DNA from: Chitinophaga pinensis
Lineage (GTDB): Bacteria > Bacteroidota > Bacteroidia > UKL13-3
Reading direction: 5' to 3'
Length of the DNA stretch: 64,000 nt
Assembly: GCA_945870425.1 (NCBI GenBank)
Contig: CAMBSD010000001.1
Coordinates: 186,001 to 250,000, forward strand
Part shown: in pieces, positions 38,287 to 47,385 of the stretch
Position numbering within the stretch: the first letter of the stretch is position 1
Layout: every line of letters starts with the position of its first letter
Made by a program: the position numbers and the translations under genes
Notes under the pieces: generated by a model
The model's input: the letters and a program-made list of their open reading frames with translations, nothing else
The model's database searches: none
What the model was told of the DNA's origin: nothing

Positions 38287-39906
38287 TTGCCAACTTTACA
38301 CTGGATAGGGAAAGAAAAAATAGTAAATCATCATCAAGATGTACCCTTCCGTGTGCTTGAACATCAATATGGATTTACAGGAAATGGCAAACAAAAAGAA
38401 GAAACCAATAGCGGAAACCTAATTATTCATGGAGATAATTTAGAGGCAATAAAAGCCTTACTTCCAAAGTATGAAGGCAAGATTGATGTTATATGTATTG
38501 ATCCACCTTATAATACAGGTAATGAGAACTGGGTATATAATGACAATGTAAATCATCCGAAAATAAAAAAATGGCTTGGACAGGTTGTAGGTCGGGAAAG
38601 TGAAGACTTAAGCCGTCATGATAAGTGGCTTTGTATGATGTATCCTCGTTTGAAATTACTTCACAAGTTGCTTTCTGATGATGGAGCAATTTTTATATCA
38701 ATTGATGATAATGAACAAGCGAATTTAAAACTAACTTGTGATGAGATTTTTGGTTCAAAACAATTTATAGGTCAATGGAATTGGTATAAATCTGCTACTC
38801 CTCCAAATTTATCGCACAAAATAAAAAAAAATATAGAATATATATTATGCTATTCAAAAACAGCAAACAATAATAGATTTTATGGGATACAAAAAGTGAG
38901 TAAAAGTGATGACCCGCTTACAAAACCTCAAAACACATTCAAAGAATTGCTTTTCAAAAAAGGTACAATAAAAATAAATTTAGAAAATCAAACATTTCAA
39001 AAAGGTATTTATGGTACAGCCAAGTTTCCTAATGAGTTAATGGATGATTTAATTATTGAAAATGGTACAAATAAAAATAATGTTCGCTTTAAAAATAGAT
39101 TTATATGGGTTCAAGATAAACTAAATGAAGAAATAAGTAAAAAAACAATTATAAAAATAAGTAGCAAATCTCTTGTTCTTGCTTACAAAAAACAAGAATA
39201 TTCAAAAGAAGCTCCACCAAATTTGATTGATTTTTCAGTTGGTGTTGACACTACTGAAAATGCTGGTCGAATTTTGAATGAAATATTCAAAGAGAAAAAA
39301 TTTGATTTTCCGAAACCTCCTTCATTACTTGAATATATTATCAGTTTTTTAAGTAAAAACAATTCAACAATACTTGATTCCTTTTCAGGTTCAGGTACAA
39401 CAGCTCATGCAGTTCTAAATCTTAATAAAGAAGATGGAGGTAACCGTAAATTCATCTTAATTGAAATGGAAGATTATGCAGAAACAATTACAGCTGAAAG
39501 GGTAAAAAGAGTAATAAATGGATTTGGTGAAAAAGCAGGTACAGGTGGTAGTTTTGATTACTACGAACTTGGTAAACCACTTTTCAAAAAGAACGGCTAC
39601 TTAAATGAAGCTTTAGAGGAAAATGAAATACGTAATTATATCTACTATACTGAAACTAAACTTCCCATATCTAAAGTAAGGGACAGTAAAAACTGGTATT
39701 TATTAGATAACTTTAACGAAACAAGTTATTACTTCTATTACGAAAAAGATAAACTTACTACTCTTGATTTAGAGAGTTTGAGTATCGTAAAAATTAAAGC
39801 AGAACAATACATCATATATGCTGACAACTGCCTATTAGATAAAGAGTATCTGCAAAAATACAATATCATTTTCAAGAAAATTCCAAGAGATATTAAACGA
39901 TTTTAA
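38287..39906 (+). CDS. mod: Type III restriction-modification system DNA methyltransferase (Mod)
   Basis: This 539-residue N6-adenine methyltransferase of the beta class has the catalytic motif DPPYNTG (about residue 72) before the SAM-binding motif DSFSGSGTTAHA (about 370), with the target-recognition region between them. The N-terminus MPTLHWIGKEK, starting with TTG, is conserved in the family, which supports this unusual start. Mod gives sequence specificity to both modification and restriction and works with Res encoded three bases downstream. A run of nine A residues around 38823 lies in the coding frame. The locus is visibly more A-rich than the core genes around it. Confidence 0.94.
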   Translation: MPTLHWIGKEKIVNHHQDVPFRVLEHQYGFTGNGKQKEETNSGNLIIHGDNLEAIKALLPKYEGKIDVICIDPPYNTGNENWVYNDNVNHPKIKKWLGQVVGRESEDLSRHDKWLCMMYPRLKLLHKLLSDDGAIFISIDDNEQANLKLTCDEIFGSKQFIGQWNWYKSATPPNLSHKIKKNIEYILCYSKTANNNRFYGIQKVSKSDDPLTKPQNTFKELLFKKGTIKINLENQTFQKGIYGTAKFPNELMDDLIIENGTNKNNVRFKNRFIWVQDKLNEEISKKTIIKISSKSLVLAYKKQEYSKEAPPNLIDFSVGVDTTENAGRILNEIFKEKKFDFPKPPSLLEYIISFLSKNNSTILDSFSGSGTTAHAVLNLNKEDGGNRKFILIEMEDYAETITAERVKRVINGFGEKAGTGGSFDYYELGKPLFKKNGYLNEALEENEIRNYIYYTETKLPISKVRDSKNWYLLDNFNETSYYFYYEKDKLTTLDLESLSIVKIKAEQYIIYADNCLLDKEYLQKYNIIFKKIPRDIKRF

Positions 39907-39909
39907 GTA

Positions 39910-42555
39910 ATGGAATTAAAGCCATATCAACAAACTGTCATTAATGAATTAGCTGAATTTATAAACTGCTTAGAACAAACAGAACATATAAATACGGCCT
40001 ATGAGAAATACTGGAATAGCAAAGGAGTATCACTTTATAACTTAGATGGAAATAACTTTATAAAGCCTTATGATAATTCTATTAAAGGCGTACCTAGGGT
40101 AACTGTTAAAGTCCCTACAGCAGGAGGTAAAACCTTTATAGCTTGCAATGCTTTAAAAACAATATTTGATAGTTTTCCAATAGATAAAGCTAAAGTAGTA
40201 GTATGGCTAGTACCCTCAGATACTATATTACAACAAACAGTTAGAAATTTGAGTGATACATCACATCCATATCGCTCAAAAATAGATAGCCATTTTGGGA
40301 GTGCCGTAAAGGTTTATGAGAAAGAGTCGCTATTGCAAGGTGCAAGTTTCGGTCCCACTGAAATTAAAGAACAACTTAGCATATTAGTATTAAGTGTATC
40401 GTCATTTTCGGCAAATAATAAAGATACACGAAAAGCCTTTCAAGAAAATGGAAATTTGCAACAATTTCCTCAAACATTTCTCCAGCCAGAAAAGCTTCTA
40501 CCTAATGTTGACGAAACAGCATTAATGCAAGTCATCAATCAGCTAAATCCAGTTGTAATTGTAGATGAAAGCCACAATGTAGAAAGTGGTTTGCGAATAG
40601 AAATGCTAAACAATATTAACCCGTCTTTTGTATTTGATTTAACTGCAACTCCTAGAGACAAAAGTAATATCATAAGTTTTGTTGATGCCATTCATCTTAA
40701 AAAATGCAATATGGTAAAGTTGCCAGTTATTGTTTACAATCATCAAGATACAAATGAAGTAATAAGTGGTGCGATTAACTTACAAAAAACATTAGAGTCA
40801 AAAGCGATTATTGAAGAGAAAAATGGAGGAAAATATATTAGACCTATTGTACTTTTTCAAGCACAGCCCAAGAACAATGACGACAACATTACTTTCGAGA
40901 AAATTAAAGAATACTTGACTGCTTCGGGAATACCAGAAGAGCAAGTTAAAATCAAAACTTCTGGTAAGGATGAAATATCAAAAGAAGACTTGATGAGTAG
41001 GGATTGTAAAGTGCGATATATTATTACAGTAAATGCTTTAAAAGAAGGCTGGGACTGCCCGTTTGCTTATATATTGGCTTCACTTGCAAATAAATCATCT
41101 GCGGTTGATGTGGAACAAATTTTAGGTCGTATTTTAAGACAACCTTATGTTATAAAACATCAACAGGATTTGTTGAATTTCTCTTATGTACTTACATCAT
41201 CAAATAATTTCATTGCTACACTTGACAAGATAATAGAAGGTCTAAATAAATCAGGATTTAGCGAAAAGGATTATCGTACCAAGGATTCTATGATTGAAGA
41301 AGAGACTAATGTACAAACACCAAAATCCGAATCTTTTGAGGACTTATTTAGTCAGAAAAAAACAGCAGAAATAAATACTGAAACAAAAGAAATTATTGAA
41401 CAAATAAATCCAAAATTGGTAAAAGAAATATCCGTTTCAGATAAGGCTCACAATCAATTAAACGAAATAATCAATCTTGCTAAACAGACTAATGAAAATT
41501 TTGAAAAAACCATAGCAAAATTAAATCAAGAAGATATTATACCAAATGAGTTGGCTAATACAATGAAATCATACCAAATAAAAGAAATATTTAAAGATGA
41601 AGTGAAAGACTTGTCAATACCTGCTTTTTTTATAAAAGTAAATCAAGGGTCAATCTTTAATGATGAGGGGTCTTTACAATTATTGAGTAAAAATCTATTG
41701 TTAAAAGACTTTGCACTCAGTCAACAAGATACAGTTATTGATTTTACTCAAACATCATCAGAGATGTATAGCATCGATTTGGCAGAAACCAAGAAAGATG
41801 AATTTGTACCTGAATACAAAAAGGAAAATAATATTGTTAAAGAAGCATTTGTGAAATACATTTCAGCACTTCAGCCAGAAGCTAAAATAAATCAACTTGC
41901 TTCAAGAATATTGAAGCTAATTAAAAAAGTGGATGCCATTCCAGAACCAGAATTGACTAAATATATAACTCATGTTCTTCATAATCTTGATAGTGATAAG
42001 CTTACAGAACTATCGCATAATGAAATGTTTTATGCCATCAAAATAAAAAAGAAAATAGAGCAATTATCAGATATATATGCTGAAAAAAGATTCAGCAATT
42101 TGCTTGACAAAGGAGTTATTATTTGTCAATCGCACTTTAAGTTTCCTAAGAAAATAAGCCCCATAAATACAATAAAAGGAATTACCAAAAACCTATATGA
42201 ACAAGAGGGTGAAATGAATGACTTTGAGAAAAAAGTAATTAATGAAATTGCCAATTTGGATAGCGTTGTATTTTGGCACAGGAATTTGGAAAGAGGTAAG
42301 GGATTTTTATTAAACGGTTTCATCAATCATTATCCTGATTTTATTATTAAAACCAAAAACGGCAAAATAGTATTACTAGAAACTAAAGGAGAACACTTAG
42401 ACGGCACTGAAAGCCAAAAGAAAATAAGGTTAGGGGAAAAATGGGCAAGCAAAGCAGGCGATCAGTTTAGATATTTTATGGTTTTCAATGCTGCAAAATT
42501 AGATGGAGCAAAATCTGTTTCTGAGTTGATAGATATTTTGAATGAAATGAAATAA
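39910..42555 (+). CDS. res: Type III restriction enzyme Res subunit (helicase-nuclease)
   Basis: This 881-residue protein has a superfamily 2 ATPase core: Walker A in PTAGGKT (near residue 73), DESH Walker B, the TAT motif, and a motif VI-like QILGRILRQP. At the C-terminus a PD-(D/E)xK-type nuclease is visible as NHYPDFIIKTKNGKIVLLETKG. With Mod it forms the type III complex that translocates or slides between two inversely oriented sites and cuts. Mod and Res are intact, so restriction should be active. The gene starts three bases after the mod stop and is the last of the operon. Confidence 0.94.
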   Translation: MELKPYQQTVINELAEFINCLEQTEHINTAYEKYWNSKGVSLYNLDGNNFIKPYDNSIKGVPRVTVKVPTAGGKTFIACNALKTIFDSFPIDKAKVVVWLVPSDTILQQTVRNLSDTSHPYRSKIDSHFGSAVKVYEKESLLQGASFGPTEIKEQLSILVLSVSSFSANNKDTRKAFQENGNLQQFPQTFLQPEKLLPNVDETALMQVINQLNPVVIVDESHNVESGLRIEMLNNINPSFVFDLTATPRDKSNIISFVDAIHLKKCNMVKLPVIVYNHQDTNEVISGAINLQKTLESKAIIEEKNGGKYIRPIVLFQAQPKNNDDNITFEKIKEYLTASGIPEEQVKIKTSGKDEISKEDLMSRDCKVRYIITVNALKEGWDCPFAYILASLANKSSAVDVEQILGRILRQPYVIKHQQDLLNFSYVLTSSNNFIATLDKIIEGLNKSGFSEKDYRTKDSMIEEETNVQTPKSESFEDLFSQKKTAEINTETKEIIEQINPKLVKEISVSDKAHNQLNEIINLAKQTNENFEKTIAKLNQEDIIPNELANTMKSYQIKEIFKDEVKDLSIPAFFIKVNQGSIFNDEGSLQLLSKNLLLKDFALSQQDTVIDFTQTSSEMYSIDLAETKKDEFVPEYKKENNIVKEAFVKYISALQPEAKINQLASRILKLIKKVDAIPEPELTKYITHVLHNLDSDKLTELSHNEMFYAIKIKKKIEQLSDIYAEKRFSNLLDKGVIICQSHFKFPKKISPINTIKGITKNLYEQEGEMNDFEKKVINEIANLDSVVFWHRNLERGKGFLLNGFINHYPDFIIKTKNGKIVLLETKGEHLDGTESQKKIRLGEKWASKAGDQFRYFMVFNAAKLDGAKSVSELIDILNEMK

Positions 42556-42632
42556 TACTCTACACAGCTATTTAATTTAAACGTCTACATGGCAAACAAA
42601 AATGTATCAAATGATTTTGTGCTACCCAAATG

Positions 42633-42665
42633 ATATTCCCCTCCTTGGAGGGGTTAGGGGTGGGT
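42633..42665. repeat. 33-bp repeat framing DUF559 gene, right side
   Basis: ATATTCCCCTCCTTGGAGGG followed by GTTAGGGGTGGGT abuts the DUF559 stop codon at 42666. It is the exact reverse complement of 43181-43213, so the two form perfect inverted repeats around the gene. The inner part CCCCTCCTTGGAGGGG is itself palindromic. Confidence 0.95.
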
Positions 42666-43049
42666 CTAGAAAGTTCTATTATCAATTTTATTTTCAATCC
42701 AAGATTCAATCTCAAAAAGCACATTCAAAATATCATATTTAATCTGCTTATCAGAAAACCTTAAGAATTCCACTCCGTATTGTTCTATTTCAGTTTGTCT
42801 TATCACATCCGCTTTATAGGCCTCTTCATGATTATGACTATCCCCATCTATTTCAATTACCAGTCTTAATTCCTTACAGTAAAAATCAACGATATAATTG
42901 AGAATAGGCTTTTGTCTATCAAAATCGTAGCCTAGCATTTTCTTTTGATGAAGGTATTTCCATAATATCACTTCACTGAGTGTGGCATTTTGACGCAATC
43001 GTTTTGCAATAATTTTTAAATTTGAGTTATATGGAATAATTTTTCTCAT
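42666..43049 (-). CDS. DUF559 (Vsr-like) endonuclease-fold protein
   Basis: This 127-residue protein has the DUF559 signature: LRQNATLSEVILWKYL, GYDFDRQKPILNYIVDFYC and VIEIDGDSH, the last carrying the acidic residues of a PD-(D/E)xK or Vsr-type nuclease site. It is complete and stands alone. It is framed by inverted 33-bp repeats at 42633-42665 and 43181-43213, with a variant copy at 43066-43106 only 16 bases upstream of the start. This suggests a single-gene mobile or self-duplicating cassette. DUF559 proteins have no settled function. It is not part of the type III operon upstream. Confidence 0.88.
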   Translation of the reverse strand: MRKIIPYNSNLKIIAKRLRQNATLSEVILWKYLHQKKMLGYDFDRQKPILNYIVDFYCKELRLVIEIDGDSHNHEEAYKADVIRQTEIEQYGVEFLRFSDKQIKYDILNVLFEIESWIENKIDNRTF

Positions 43050-43065
43050 GGCTAAATAAGTATTT

Positions 43066-43106
43066 ACCCACCCCTATGCTCCGCTGAAAAGCAGCAGGGG
43101 AATATC
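43066..43106. repeat. Variant internal copy of the DUF559 cassette repeat
   Basis: ACCCACCCCTA and AGGGGAATATC match the two ends of the 33-bp repeat, but its centre is replaced by TGCTCCGCTGAAAAGCAGC, another potential hairpin. It lies between the DUF559 start and the outer repeat at 43181-43213. Confidence 0.85.
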
Positions 43107-43180
43107 AATGAGGTAAATTTATATTTTTTAGTTCAATTCAATTATTATTGAGGTATTCACTTTTTGCAACTTTTATATTT

Positions 43181-43213
43181 ACCCACCCCTAACCCCTCCA
43201 AGGAGGGGAATAT
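43181..43213. repeat. 33-bp repeat framing DUF559 gene, left side
   Basis: ACCCACCCCTAACCCCTCCA then AGGAGGGGAATAT is the exact reverse complement of 42633-42665. It lies 131 bases upstream of the DUF559 start codon and 94 bases downstream of the uvrA stop. Confidence 0.95.
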
Positions 43214-43306
43214 CAAACCGGTAATTTAATTTTCGTATTATTTGAATCACACTTTATAAGCGTCTGACGCCTTTCTTGCCAAACTCCTACCCACAATTGT
43301 CTGACG

Positions 43307-46180
43307 CTAGTGGAGGCCCAATTCTTTTTTCAAGAATCTTCCGGTATGACTTCTAGGCTCTTTGCAAATTTCTTCAGGTGTACCTACACATAACACTTCA
43401 CCCCCATACTTACCACCTTCTGAACCGATGTCAATGATATAATCTGCAACCTTTACCATGTCCAAATTATGCTCTATCACAAGAACGCTATTGCCTTTAT
43501 CAACCAACTTTTGCAATACACCTAACAATACCCGCACATCTTCAAAATGCAAACCTGTGGTAGGTTCATCAAGAATATAAAAAGTATTACCTGTATCACG
43601 TTTACTTAACTCAGTAGCCAACTTCACACGTTGTGCTTCTCCCCCACTCAAAGTAGTACTTTGTTGTCCGAGGGTGATATAACCCAAACCCACGTCTCTC
43701 AAAGCTTCTATCTTACGGTTAATAAATGGAATATGTTCAAAGAAAGGAACTGCTTCCTCAATACTCATATTCAACACATCGTTGATGCTTTTGCCTTTGT
43801 AGCGCACTTCTAAAGTTTCTCTGTTGTATCTTCTGCCATCACAGGTTTCGCACTTAACATACACATCAGGTAAAAAATTCATTTCTATGCTTCGCATACC
43901 TGCGCCTTGGCAAGTTTCGCATCTACCACCTTTAACATTAAATGAAAACCTGCCCGGCTTGTAGCCTCTAATTTTAGATTCAGGCAAACTGGCAAAGAGA
44001 TTTCTGATATCGCCAAATACTTCTACATAAGTTGCAGGGTTGCTCCTAGGTGTGCGACCTATTGGGCTTTGGTCAATTTCAATCACTTTATCAATATGCT
44101 CTATGCCTTTAAACTCTTTATAAGCAAGAGGCTTTTGATGTGAGCCATAAAAATGCTGACGTAATATAGGGTATAGCGTTTCGTTTATAAGCGTTGATTT
44201 TCCGCTACCACTCACACCCGTTACACAAATAAATTTACCCAGTGGAAACTCCACCGTGATGTTCTTTAAATTGTTTCCAGTAGCGCCTTTTAATATCAGT
44301 TTTTTGCCATTGCCTTTTCTTCTAATTTTCGGCACTTCAATTTCTTTCTTACCATTCAGGTATTGTGCAGTAATGGAATTTGATTTCATCAATTCTTCCA
44401 AGGTGCCTTGTGCAGCGATATGTCCGCCATGCACACCTGCCCCATAACCAATATCAAGGATAAAATCACTTTCGGTAATCATGTCCTTGTCGTGTTCCAC
44501 CACTATCACACTGTTGCCCACATCACGCAACTCTTTCAATGAGTTTATCAATCTGTTATTATCTCGTTGATGAAGACCAATGCTAGGCTCATCAAGGATA
44601 TACAACACCCCCACCAATTGCGAGCCTATTTGTGTAGCCAATCGAATGCGCTGCGCTTCTCCCCCACTCAAGGTTCTAGCAGGTGAGTTGAGCGTTAAGT
44701 AATCTATTCCAACACCCACCAAAAATTTAATGCGTGTGCGGATTTCTTTTAATATTTCAGTAGCAATCAACAATTGCTTTTTATCCAATAAGCTTTCAAC
44801 ATCTTCAAACCAAGTTCCAAGAGCAGCAATCTCCATTTGCGCCAAATCAGCAATGTTATTATTGCCAATTCTATAATGCAAACTTTCTTTCTTTAACCTC
44901 CCACCATTGCACTCGGGGCAGGTGTCGATGCTCATAAACTCTTCGGCCCAACGGGCTACAGAATCGGCACTTTTCTCATGGTAATGCCTTGAAATAAAAG
45001 GAATCAAACCCTCCCATTTGCTGTTATAATTTTGGGTATAGCCACTTGCATATTCATACGGAATGGTAAGCGGTTCATCACTGCCATGCAATATCACATC
45101 CAAAGCTTCGCGACTTAATTTTTCGATAGGGTCGGCAAAACTGAATTTGTATTTTTTAGCAATCTCTCTCAATTGCAGGAAAGTCCAGTTTTCGCGGGCT
45201 TCTCCGAGAGGGGCAATGGCACCTTTGTTGATGCTTAATTTCTTATCAGGAATGATATTGAACTCTTCAATACTGTTTATCACACCCAAACCATCACATT
45301 TGGGACAAGCACCATAAGGAGAGTTGAACGAAAAAGTATTGGGTTGGGCTTCATCATAACTGATGCCACTTTTGGGATCCATCAAAAACTTACTAAAGTG
45401 ATAAGCTTTGTTTAAGTCATTATCCACCAATACCAGGGTGCCTTTACCCATTTTAAGGGCACTTTTCACACTCTCGCCAATGCGGAAACGAGCGTCCTTT
45501 TTAGGTTCAATCCTATCTATCAATACTTCAATATCGTGAATCTTGTAGCGATCGGCTTGCATCTTGGGGGCAATATCCACCACTTCAGCATCAAGCCTCA
45601 CTTTGGTATAACCTTGCTTGCGTATTTGCTCAAATAGCTCGCGGTAGTGGCCTTTTCGACCTTTTACCAATGGAGCCAGGATACTTATTTTCTTGTTCTC
45701 AAATTGGGTGATGATGTTCGATACTATTTGCTCTTCCGTCATCTTCACCATCTTTTCGCCACTCTCGTAACTATAGGCATCAGCAGCACGGGCAAAAAGC
45801 AAACGCAAAAAATCGTATATCTCGGTAATGGTGCCCACTGTAGAGCGTGGGTTTTTGTTTACCGTTTTTTGTTCAATAGAAATAACGGGTGAAAGCCCAT
45901 TTATTTTGTCAACATCAGGGCGTTCCATATTGCCAATAAATTGGCGGGCATAGGCACTAAAGCTTTCCATATACCTGCGCTGCCCTTCGGCAAAAATGGT
46001 ATCAAAAGCCAAAGAAGATTTGCCACTTCCGCTGAGTCCTGTGATGCATACCAACTTGTTGCGAGGGATATTAACATCAATGTTTTTTAAGTTGTGCTCA
46101 CGTGCACCCAATATCTCAATATACTCATCTTCAAGGGCAGATTTGGCTATTTTATCTTCTATTATTTTTGATTCGCTCAT
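43307..46180 (-). CDS. uvrA: Excinuclease ABC subunit A
   Basis: This protein (957 residues from the ATG at 46180) has both ABC ATPase modules: Walker A GLSGSGKSSLAF near the N-terminus and GVSGSGKSTLIN in the second half, each with its ABC signature (LSGGEAQR) and Walker B (ILDEP). Two CxxC zinc-binding motifs are present (CPECNGG and CETCQGAG...CETCDG). It finds bulky DNA damage with UvrB in nucleotide excision repair. An in-frame TTG at 46198 would add six residues, but the ATG is preferred. It is a core gene within the accessory island, and no uvr partner is adjacent. Confidence 0.97.
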   Translation of the reverse strand: MSESKIIEDKIAKSALEDEYIEILGAREHNLKNIDVNIPRNKLVCITGLSGSGKSSLAFDTIFAEGQRRYMESFSAYARQFIGNMERPDVDKINGLSPVISIEQKTVNKNPRSTVGTITEIYDFLRLLFARAADAYSYESGEKMVKMTEEQIVSNIITQFENKKISILAPLVKGRKGHYRELFEQIRKQGYTKVRLDAEVVDIAPKMQADRYKIHDIEVLIDRIEPKKDARFRIGESVKSALKMGKGTLVLVDNDLNKAYHFSKFLMDPKSGISYDEAQPNTFSFNSPYGACPKCDGLGVINSIEEFNIIPDKKLSINKGAIAPLGEARENWTFLQLREIAKKYKFSFADPIEKLSREALDVILHGSDEPLTIPYEYASGYTQNYNSKWEGLIPFISRHYHEKSADSVARWAEEFMSIDTCPECNGGRLKKESLHYRIGNNNIADLAQMEIAALGTWFEDVESLLDKKQLLIATEILKEIRTRIKFLVGVGIDYLTLNSPARTLSGGEAQRIRLATQIGSQLVGVLYILDEPSIGLHQRDNNRLINSLKELRDVGNSVIVVEHDKDMITESDFILDIGYGAGVHGGHIAAQGTLEELMKSNSITAQYLNGKKEIEVPKIRRKGNGKKLILKGATGNNLKNITVEFPLGKFICVTGVSGSGKSTLINETLYPILRQHFYGSHQKPLAYKEFKGIEHIDKVIEIDQSPIGRTPRSNPATYVEVFGDIRNLFASLPESKIRGYKPGRFSFNVKGGRCETCQGAGMRSIEMNFLPDVYVKCETCDGRRYNRETLEVRYKGKSINDVLNMSIEEAVPFFEHIPFINRKIEALRDVGLGYITLGQQSTTLSGGEAQRVKLATELSKRDTGNTFYILDEPTTGLHFEDVRVLLGVLQKLVDKGNSVLVIEHNLDMVKVADYIIDIGSEGGKYGGEVLCVGTPEEICKEPRSHTGRFLKKELGLH

Positions 46181-46303
46181 TGGTACATTCAACCCCAAAA
46201 ACAGGGCTTTGTTTTATCTTTACAATAATGCAAAAATTAATCGGTCTTTGGATGAGTGGTGATGAATATTAATGAAGAATTGGCATAATACAACCCACTA
46301 CAT

Positions 46304-46374: not shown

Positions 46375-46677
46375 TTATTTTTTACTTTTCGTATATCTTT
46401 TTTGCGGATGCCTTCTAGCATTGATAAAACGATAAATTACAATATGCTTTCCATCAATTTCAAATAATACTAAATAGGGAAAACGATTGAGCATTGCTTG
46501 TCTAAAATTTTTGTACTTTTTCTCATAGCCTTCTGGATTTACATGTATTTTTGTTAAGGCTGATTCAAATTCATCTACAAGGGCTACACCTAAAGAAAGT
46601 TGCAGTTCTTCATAGTACAACGCTGATTCATTTAACTCTTTATATACTTCATCTAAAATGATTAGACTGTATTTCAT
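46375..46677 (-). CDS. RelE/ParE-type toxin
   Basis: The 100-residue protein has the RelE/ParE fold pattern: YSLIILDEVYKELNESALYYEE, then VDEFESALTKIHVNPEGYEKKYKNFRQAMLNRFPYLVLFEI, ending IVIYRFINARRHPQKRY with the conserved arginines. Toxins of this group either poison gyrase (ParE) or cut mRNA on ribosomes (RelE), and the arrangement here favours ParE without proof. Its start overlaps the preceding antitoxin stop by four bases. It is a complete toxin-antitoxin pair in the accessory island. Confidence 0.88.
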   Translation of the reverse strand: MKYSLIILDEVYKELNESALYYEELQLSLGVALVDEFESALTKIHVNPEGYEKKYKNFRQAMLNRFPYLVLFEIDGKHIVIYRFINARRHPQKRYTKSKK

Positions 46678-46913
46678 GCAGAAAGGTTTTTCATTACTTT
46701 TTTACGCACTTCACTCATTGTAAATGTTTTTGCTTCACCACTTTTGTACAATGCCTTTCTTTCGTCCAATATTTGTTTATTATCTATGCTTAATTCATAG
46801 TCAAATTTCTCACTTCTGGTATTAATGATAGTGTAGAGTGCTTCCAAAAATGACTTATCATTGATATCATTTAATGCTCTGGCTATTTCATTTTTTAATA
46901 TATCAGTTGTCAT
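46674..46913 (-). CDS. Antitoxin of the ParE-like pair (addiction-module family)
   Basis: The 79-residue helical protein lies directly upstream of, and overlaps by four bases, the ParE-like toxin gene. It has an N-terminal helix (MTTDILKNEIARALNDINDKSFLEALYTII) and a flexible, charged C-terminus (RKALYKSGEAKTFTMSEVRKKVMKNL), the shape expected for a toxin-neutralising tail. It lacks a clear HTH, ribbon or Phd fold, so its antitoxin family is not certain. The position and coupling are the main evidence. Confidence 0.78.
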   Translation of the reverse strand: MTTDILKNEIARALNDINDKSFLEALYTIINTRSEKFDYELSIDNKQILDERKALYKSGEAKTFTMSEVRKKVMKNLSA

Positions 46914-47131: not shown

Positions 47132-47385
47132 TTACTTAGCCGATGAAAATTGATATTCTTCTGGCAAAGATACTAGCTTCCATTTTACTTGCACTGGGTT
47201 ATTATGAATATAATTCAATTTTTTAATAGTAATTTCTTTACTTTTTATTTTAATTGTTCTTGCTCTTCTTTCCCAGAAATGATAAGCCCTGTCGTTTTGG
47301 GTTGAAATGTAGTTTTTCAATAATTCACTATTTTTTGATAGAAGGTATTTTTTGAACGCATGTCCAGTAAACTTGCCTGCGTTCA
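47132..47385 (-). pseudogene. Truncated RAYT transposase fragment
   Basis: From about 47385 the minus strand encodes NAGKFTGHAFKKYLLSKNSE, then AYHFWERRARTI and LNYIHNNPVQVKWK, ending EEYQFSSAK. This is the C-terminal half of a RAYT/Y1-type transposase, related to but different from the one at 30858. The HUH half is missing and is replaced upstream by stop codons and a family C palindrome (47394-47420). A family C arm (GGTTGGTG, 47044-47051) lies on the other side. No function is expected. Confidence 0.82.

Follow-up and report, generated by a model that had tools for sequence, protein, structure and literature searches.

The window, by which we mean the whole stretch of 64,000 nucleotides analysed here, contains a nuclease gene enclosed by inverted palindromes, and the locus raises the question of whether gene and palindromes belong together and, if so, whether they are mobile. 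The DUF559 gene (42666..43049, minus strand) encodes a protein of 127 aa with a Vsr/EDxHD-like fold (Pfam PF04480, E-value 1.8e-29). The REP-like palindrome downstream of it (42631..42665, plus strand) consists of the hairpin CCCCTCCttGGAGGGG and the tag TTAGGGGTGGGT, with the tag towards the gene, and the upstream copy (43181..43215, minus strand) is its exact inverse. The initial annotation had described a perfect inverted pair of 33 bp; the pair is indeed perfect, but its length is 35 bp. In agreement with that annotation, the left copy directly adjoins the stop codon of the minus-strand ORF (position 42665 against the ORF start coordinate 42666), and a variant REP with a swapped center (43066..43107, minus strand) lies 16 bp before the start codon. 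The variant shares its ends with the pair and differs in its stem (GCTG..CAGC), and in its predicted folding the G-run of the tag pairs with the outer CCCC. The chance expectation for an exact inverted repeat of 35 bp within 1 kb is ~1e-12 for a 64-kb window of the same composition. No Rfam match was found for the repeat.

The cassette is bordered upstream by uvrA (43307..46198, minus strand) and downstream by a type III restriction subunit (39910..42555, plus strand). The latter belongs to a type III restriction-modification pair (38287-42555), and homology to a sister species breaks off at the boundary between this pair and the cassette (see below). As had been noted before, no transposase adjoins the cassette, and Pfam detected no transposase domain. 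Farther along the window, a 62-aa ORF on the minus strand (47132-47320) without a Pfam match resembles in sequence (HNNPVQ..W..YQFSS) the C-terminus of REP-associated tyrosine transposases. The region 46375-46913, comprising a ParE-like toxin gene (46375-46677) and a small adjoining ORF, is likely a toxin-antitoxin pair, and the ParE-like gene was also found on a contig of the sister species.

Palindromes beside DUF559 genes in other bacteria

A related protein was present in 29 of the 58 relatives searched. DUF559 genes distant in sequence from that of the window mostly have adjacent palindromes with the same anatomy and a different sequence, and the association was therefore tested without a motif: the 300 bp preceding a gene were locally aligned with the 300 bp following it, and a best score of 22 or higher was counted as positive. 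A repeat shared by both flanks was found for 21 of 39 stand-alone DUF559 genes, compared with 13 of 640 other ORFs in these stretches; the 13 include one tandem DUF559 gene. An independent set of 80 named loci gave 21/51 and 12/600, respectively. Tagged hairpins were defined by a minimum stem of 6, GGG in an arm, and a second G-run within ~9 nt. Within 250 bp, one occurred near 31/38 and 38/51 stand-alone DUF559 genes and near 14/217 and 14/190 short control genes (6–7%); by this definition, ~20% of the stand-alone DUF559 genes lack one.

Such repeats stand beside DUF559 genes in Pseudanabaena, Picosynechococcus, Deinococcus (an inverted pair resembling that of the window), Azospirillum, Sinorhizobium, Methylobacterium, Neisseria, Escherichia coli, and Acinetobacter, and in metagenome genomes of Chloroflexota, Omnitrophota, Desulfobacterales, and Planctomycetes. 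They are REP-like, with a C-rich stem and a second G-run as a tag; the common form, CCTCACCCYnRCCCTCTCC..loop..GGAGAGGG, varies by genome. Protein identity and flank-repeat similarity were correlated over 108 loci (Mantel test; Spearman 0.19 for pairs below 60% identity, permutation p 0.001). The result that would have refuted the initial annotation, namely repeats whose position does not follow DUF559 genes, was looked for and not found; the repeats track DUF559 across phyla.

The palindromes are hairpins that lie mostly in gene gaps, as would be the case if they were ordinary terminators or general intergenic repeats and DUF559 genes merely happened to lie where repeats are frequent. In the window copies, however, the stem is not followed by a T-run, flank repeats are common to only 2% of the other genes in the same stretches, and repeats occur within reading frames at the edges of DUF559 inserts. 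The flank-sharing tests and the hairpins at the edges of in-gene inserts make the chance explanation untenable, and we give it practically no credence.

Copy number in the genomes and in E. coli strains

The genome containing the window (2.96 Mb, 43 contigs) has three DUF559 matches, and the same or a near-identical repeat occurs solo at ~6 further places in it, with no DUF559 gene beside the copies inspected. In G089, a single contig of 4.2 Mb with 11 DUF559 genes, one cassette together with its surrounding repeats gave at least 47 matches, and different DUF559 paralogues are flanked by different repeats. Tandem DUF559 genes ~560 bp apart, near one cassette length, were seen in G089 (C1:2788352 and 2788913) and G091 (C114:35449 and 36016). 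Repeats were also counted with and without the gene, as the initial annotation had proposed: among 295 genomes of the class, at least five copies of the motif CCTCACCCN{0,6}CCYTCTCC were present in 48 of 139 genomes with DUF559 and 8 of 156 without (Fisher 6e-11), the relatedness of the genomes not being removed. In some repeat-rich genomes no DUF559 was found (G148, G151, and G181).

The DUF559 gene of E. coli is ycjD, located between sapF and fabI and present in ~3,364 of 5,426 complete genomes. We take the repeats beside it to resemble box C repeats, and have no literature source for a link between box C and ycjD. In evenly spaced samples, strains with ycjD had 11–25 repeat places (median 17, n = 37) and strains without it 1–16 (median 3, n = 23); the strains are not independent, and the contrast probably reflects few lineage events. 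O157:H7 lacks ycjD, yet has ~12 copies, and this case, like those of the three genomes above, requires past loss, assembly gaps or other enzymes. Solo repeats differ in presence between E. coli strains. At yjdP-phnP, strains without the inverted pair keep the tag-like sequence CCCTCAC(C/T), which could be a target or a deletion scar. Strains without ycjD carry an island of RND/MFS efflux genes between sapF and fabI (L293, L294, and L295), so there is no simple empty site at that position.

Fixed sites and insertion within host genes

Long "fused" DUF559 ORFs had been considered as a negative control (flank-sharing in 1/20 and 1/23) and were rejected as such because they are cassettes lodged in host genes, where the repeats mark the insert edges. 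In-frame cassettes were found at two positions each in MetH and LeuRS, one of the MetH cases being in the genome from which the window comes but not in the window itself. Further cases were found in a class I tRNA synthetase other than LeuRS, methylmalonyl-CoA mutase, HisA, and an amino-acid kinase, and in other phyla in ValRS (Chloroflexota), RecG (a betaproteobacterium), UvrC (Ignavibacteria), and HsdM-like genes. The repeats at the insert edges lie in the reading frame and are translated as linkers, e.g., LTPNPSPKERG. A tagged hairpin was present at one edge or more in 19 of 20 in-gene DUF559 cases and at both edges in 13 of 20, against 1.7% and 0.11% of random windows. No Hint/intein domain was found around the nuclease; Pfam detected only DUF559 between the host domains. 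A solo repeat in L099:4118-5464, adjoining a DUF559 cassette, is apparently translated inside lysC (TPSNSPHRGTGGL).

Presence and absence, which the initial annotation had suggested checking between strains, was seen between species at a MetH site compared across 30 members of a single genus: ~17 were empty, 4 had only the REP, 1 had an internally deleted cassette, and 7 had a full one. The seven full cassettes are of two unrelated types, and in G331 and G344 near-identical host DNA surrounds different cassettes. The host linker at the insertion point is variable. A target-site duplication, sought at the MetH and E. coli sites, was not clearly seen. Between lysC and lysA in one genus, REP-DUF559-REP was present in two species, a REP pair without the gene in one, nothing in one, and a RAYT with its own palindrome in one. 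This RAYT (L306, in G091) has different palindromes and occupies the intergenic site that is filled by the DUF559 cassette in sister species; the lysC-lysA site is host to two kinds of selfish element.

Divergence from the sister species

In the sister species of the window genome, the cassette is at the same place beside uvrA, with 96.6% identity over 4.4 kb. The homology extends 11 bp beyond the left repeat, to 42620, past which the two genomes have different restriction genes. In uvrA, 100 of 608 synonymous sites had changed, compared with 2 of 70 in DUF559 (Fisher p 0.001); for the final 128 uvrA codons alone the count was 34 of 85. The synonymous change in DUF559 is far below that of uvrA, which implies that the common ancestor of the cassette gene is more recent than that of the surrounding DNA. 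The low divergence is what recent transfer or homing would produce, and is only suggestive, coming as it does from the comparison of a single gene pair.

Structure of the protein and possible mechanism

An AlphaFold model of the window protein (pLDDT 91.9) matched 3hrl (NGO0050, a DUF559 protein from Neisseria) and 3r3p (the catalytic domain of I-Bth0305I) in Foldseek, and Vsr more weakly. For 3r3p, the E-value of the sequence profile was 1.2e-6 and the TM score of the fold, normalised by target, was 0.80. Invariant residues include Q46, D55, E66, H72, and D81.

In a rival explanation, DUF559 would be a Vsr-like nuclease serving the host in repair or regulation, and the palindromes would be selected regulatory or dispersed binding sites that do not move. 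Caulobacter VsrA, a DUF559 protein, is reportedly needed for the DNA damage response upon loss of a cytosine methyltransferase, which ties it to both cytosine methylation and DNA damage (PMC12907096); a word search for palindromes in the paper gave no mention of them. The frequent position of the palindromes directly before a start codon would also suit a host function. Against it, repeat and gene occur together in frame inside MetH, LeuRS, ValRS, and RecG, the same site is filled by two unrelated cassettes, and the distribution is patchy, and we regard a purely host role as unlikely.

The association, dispersal, co-variation, site-specific presence or absence, and in-frame insertion described above are shown by the data, and probably reflect a widespread selfish cassette resembling a homing endonuclease, in which REP-like palindromes enclose a DUF559 nuclease gene and which works like REP/RAYT with an unrelated enzyme. 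The palindromes would be the ends of the cassette or its recognition sites, and the cassette and solo palindromes of the same family would spread through genomes, usually into intergenic sites and also in frame into conserved genes. The most likely course, by inference, is that the DUF559 protein recognises its cognate palindromes and nicks or cuts DNA there or nearby, and that host repair then fills the break with a copy of a repeat or of the entire cassette. Binding, cleavage, the nature of the substrate, the route of copying, and the protein as the driver of spread are all inferred, with no biochemical evidence. The proposal of the initial annotation, a one-gene mobile cassette or a repeat family served by the DUF559 protein, is largely supported by the association, the fixed-site presence and absence, and the in-frame units; both of its versions fit, and binding or cutting has not been shown.

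We also lean, with some reserve, towards the broader view that these cassettes are a bacteria-wide class of mobile element, including ycjD and the E. coli box C repeats, in which a Vsr/EDxHD-like DUF559 nuclease, independently of any transposase, moves itself and its own palindromes and inserts into essential genes in frame and with no splicing. If true, a large family of "unknown function" would gain a role and a very common type of bacterial repeat a partner enzyme, and the housekeeping proteins MetH, LeuRS, ValRS, RecG, and UvrC would carry a translated selfish nuclease. With ycjD and box C-like repeats in laboratory E. coli, what spreads such repeats would be directly testable. In the open-licence literature, we found no paper linking DUF559 to repeats or palindromes or joining it with a tRNA synthetase, and among the papers listed on homing or selfish elements none that mentions it; most subscription journals were outside this scope and priority is not established.

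Comparison with known systems

The closest likeness in anatomy is to REP/RAYT systems: a short palindrome with an unpaired tag, dispersed copies on both sides of the gene, gene-free inverted pairs, a nuclease gene flanked by copies, and several repeat types per genome, each beside its own enzyme. The palindromes might accordingly be REPs moved by RAYT (Y1) transposases, with DUF559 as a frequent passenger. The arrangement is that of a REPtron (repeat-gene-inverted repeat, solo repeats, and inverted pairs), and GGGGTGAG fits the GGGGWSAS motif of a published class of transposase-flanking repeats (PMC3733652). The Y1_Tnp genes of the same class of bacteria, however, carry palindromes of another sequence: 5 of 15 had repeats common to both flanks, and these repeats differ in sequence from the DUF559 palindromes, which indicates that the test detects known REP systems and that DUF559 repeats are a separate kind. 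DUF559 and repeats also occur without a Y1_Tnp match, for instance in G048, and DUF559 is the sole gene that recurs both in different phyla and within host genes. The passenger explanation therefore appears very unlikely to us.

The DUF559 cassette also differs from REP/RAYT in its enzyme, which is a Vsr/EDxHD-like PF04480 protein and not a Y1 HUH transposase; Pfam found no Y1_Tnp (PF01797) in the window protein and eight further DUF559 proteins. In the flanks read, a second G-run following the stem forms the tag (the GGGGTGAGG class; GGGG(T)GAGG-like) in place of GTAG or CGTC, and full cassettes occur in frame inside essential genes. Rickettsia palindromic elements are likewise translated in frame inside genes; they are not known to carry a nuclease gene. 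The cassette differs from an intein in lacking a Hint domain and from an insertion sequence in lacking a known transposase and a clear target-site duplication. With free-standing and intein-type homing endonucleases (EDxHD family, I-Bth0305I) it shares a related fold, degraded and deleted copies, and recurrent fixed sites in conserved genes with empty and filled alleles (MetH and lysC-lysA, between species), while differing from them in being bounded by its own palindromes, of which there are many solo copies.
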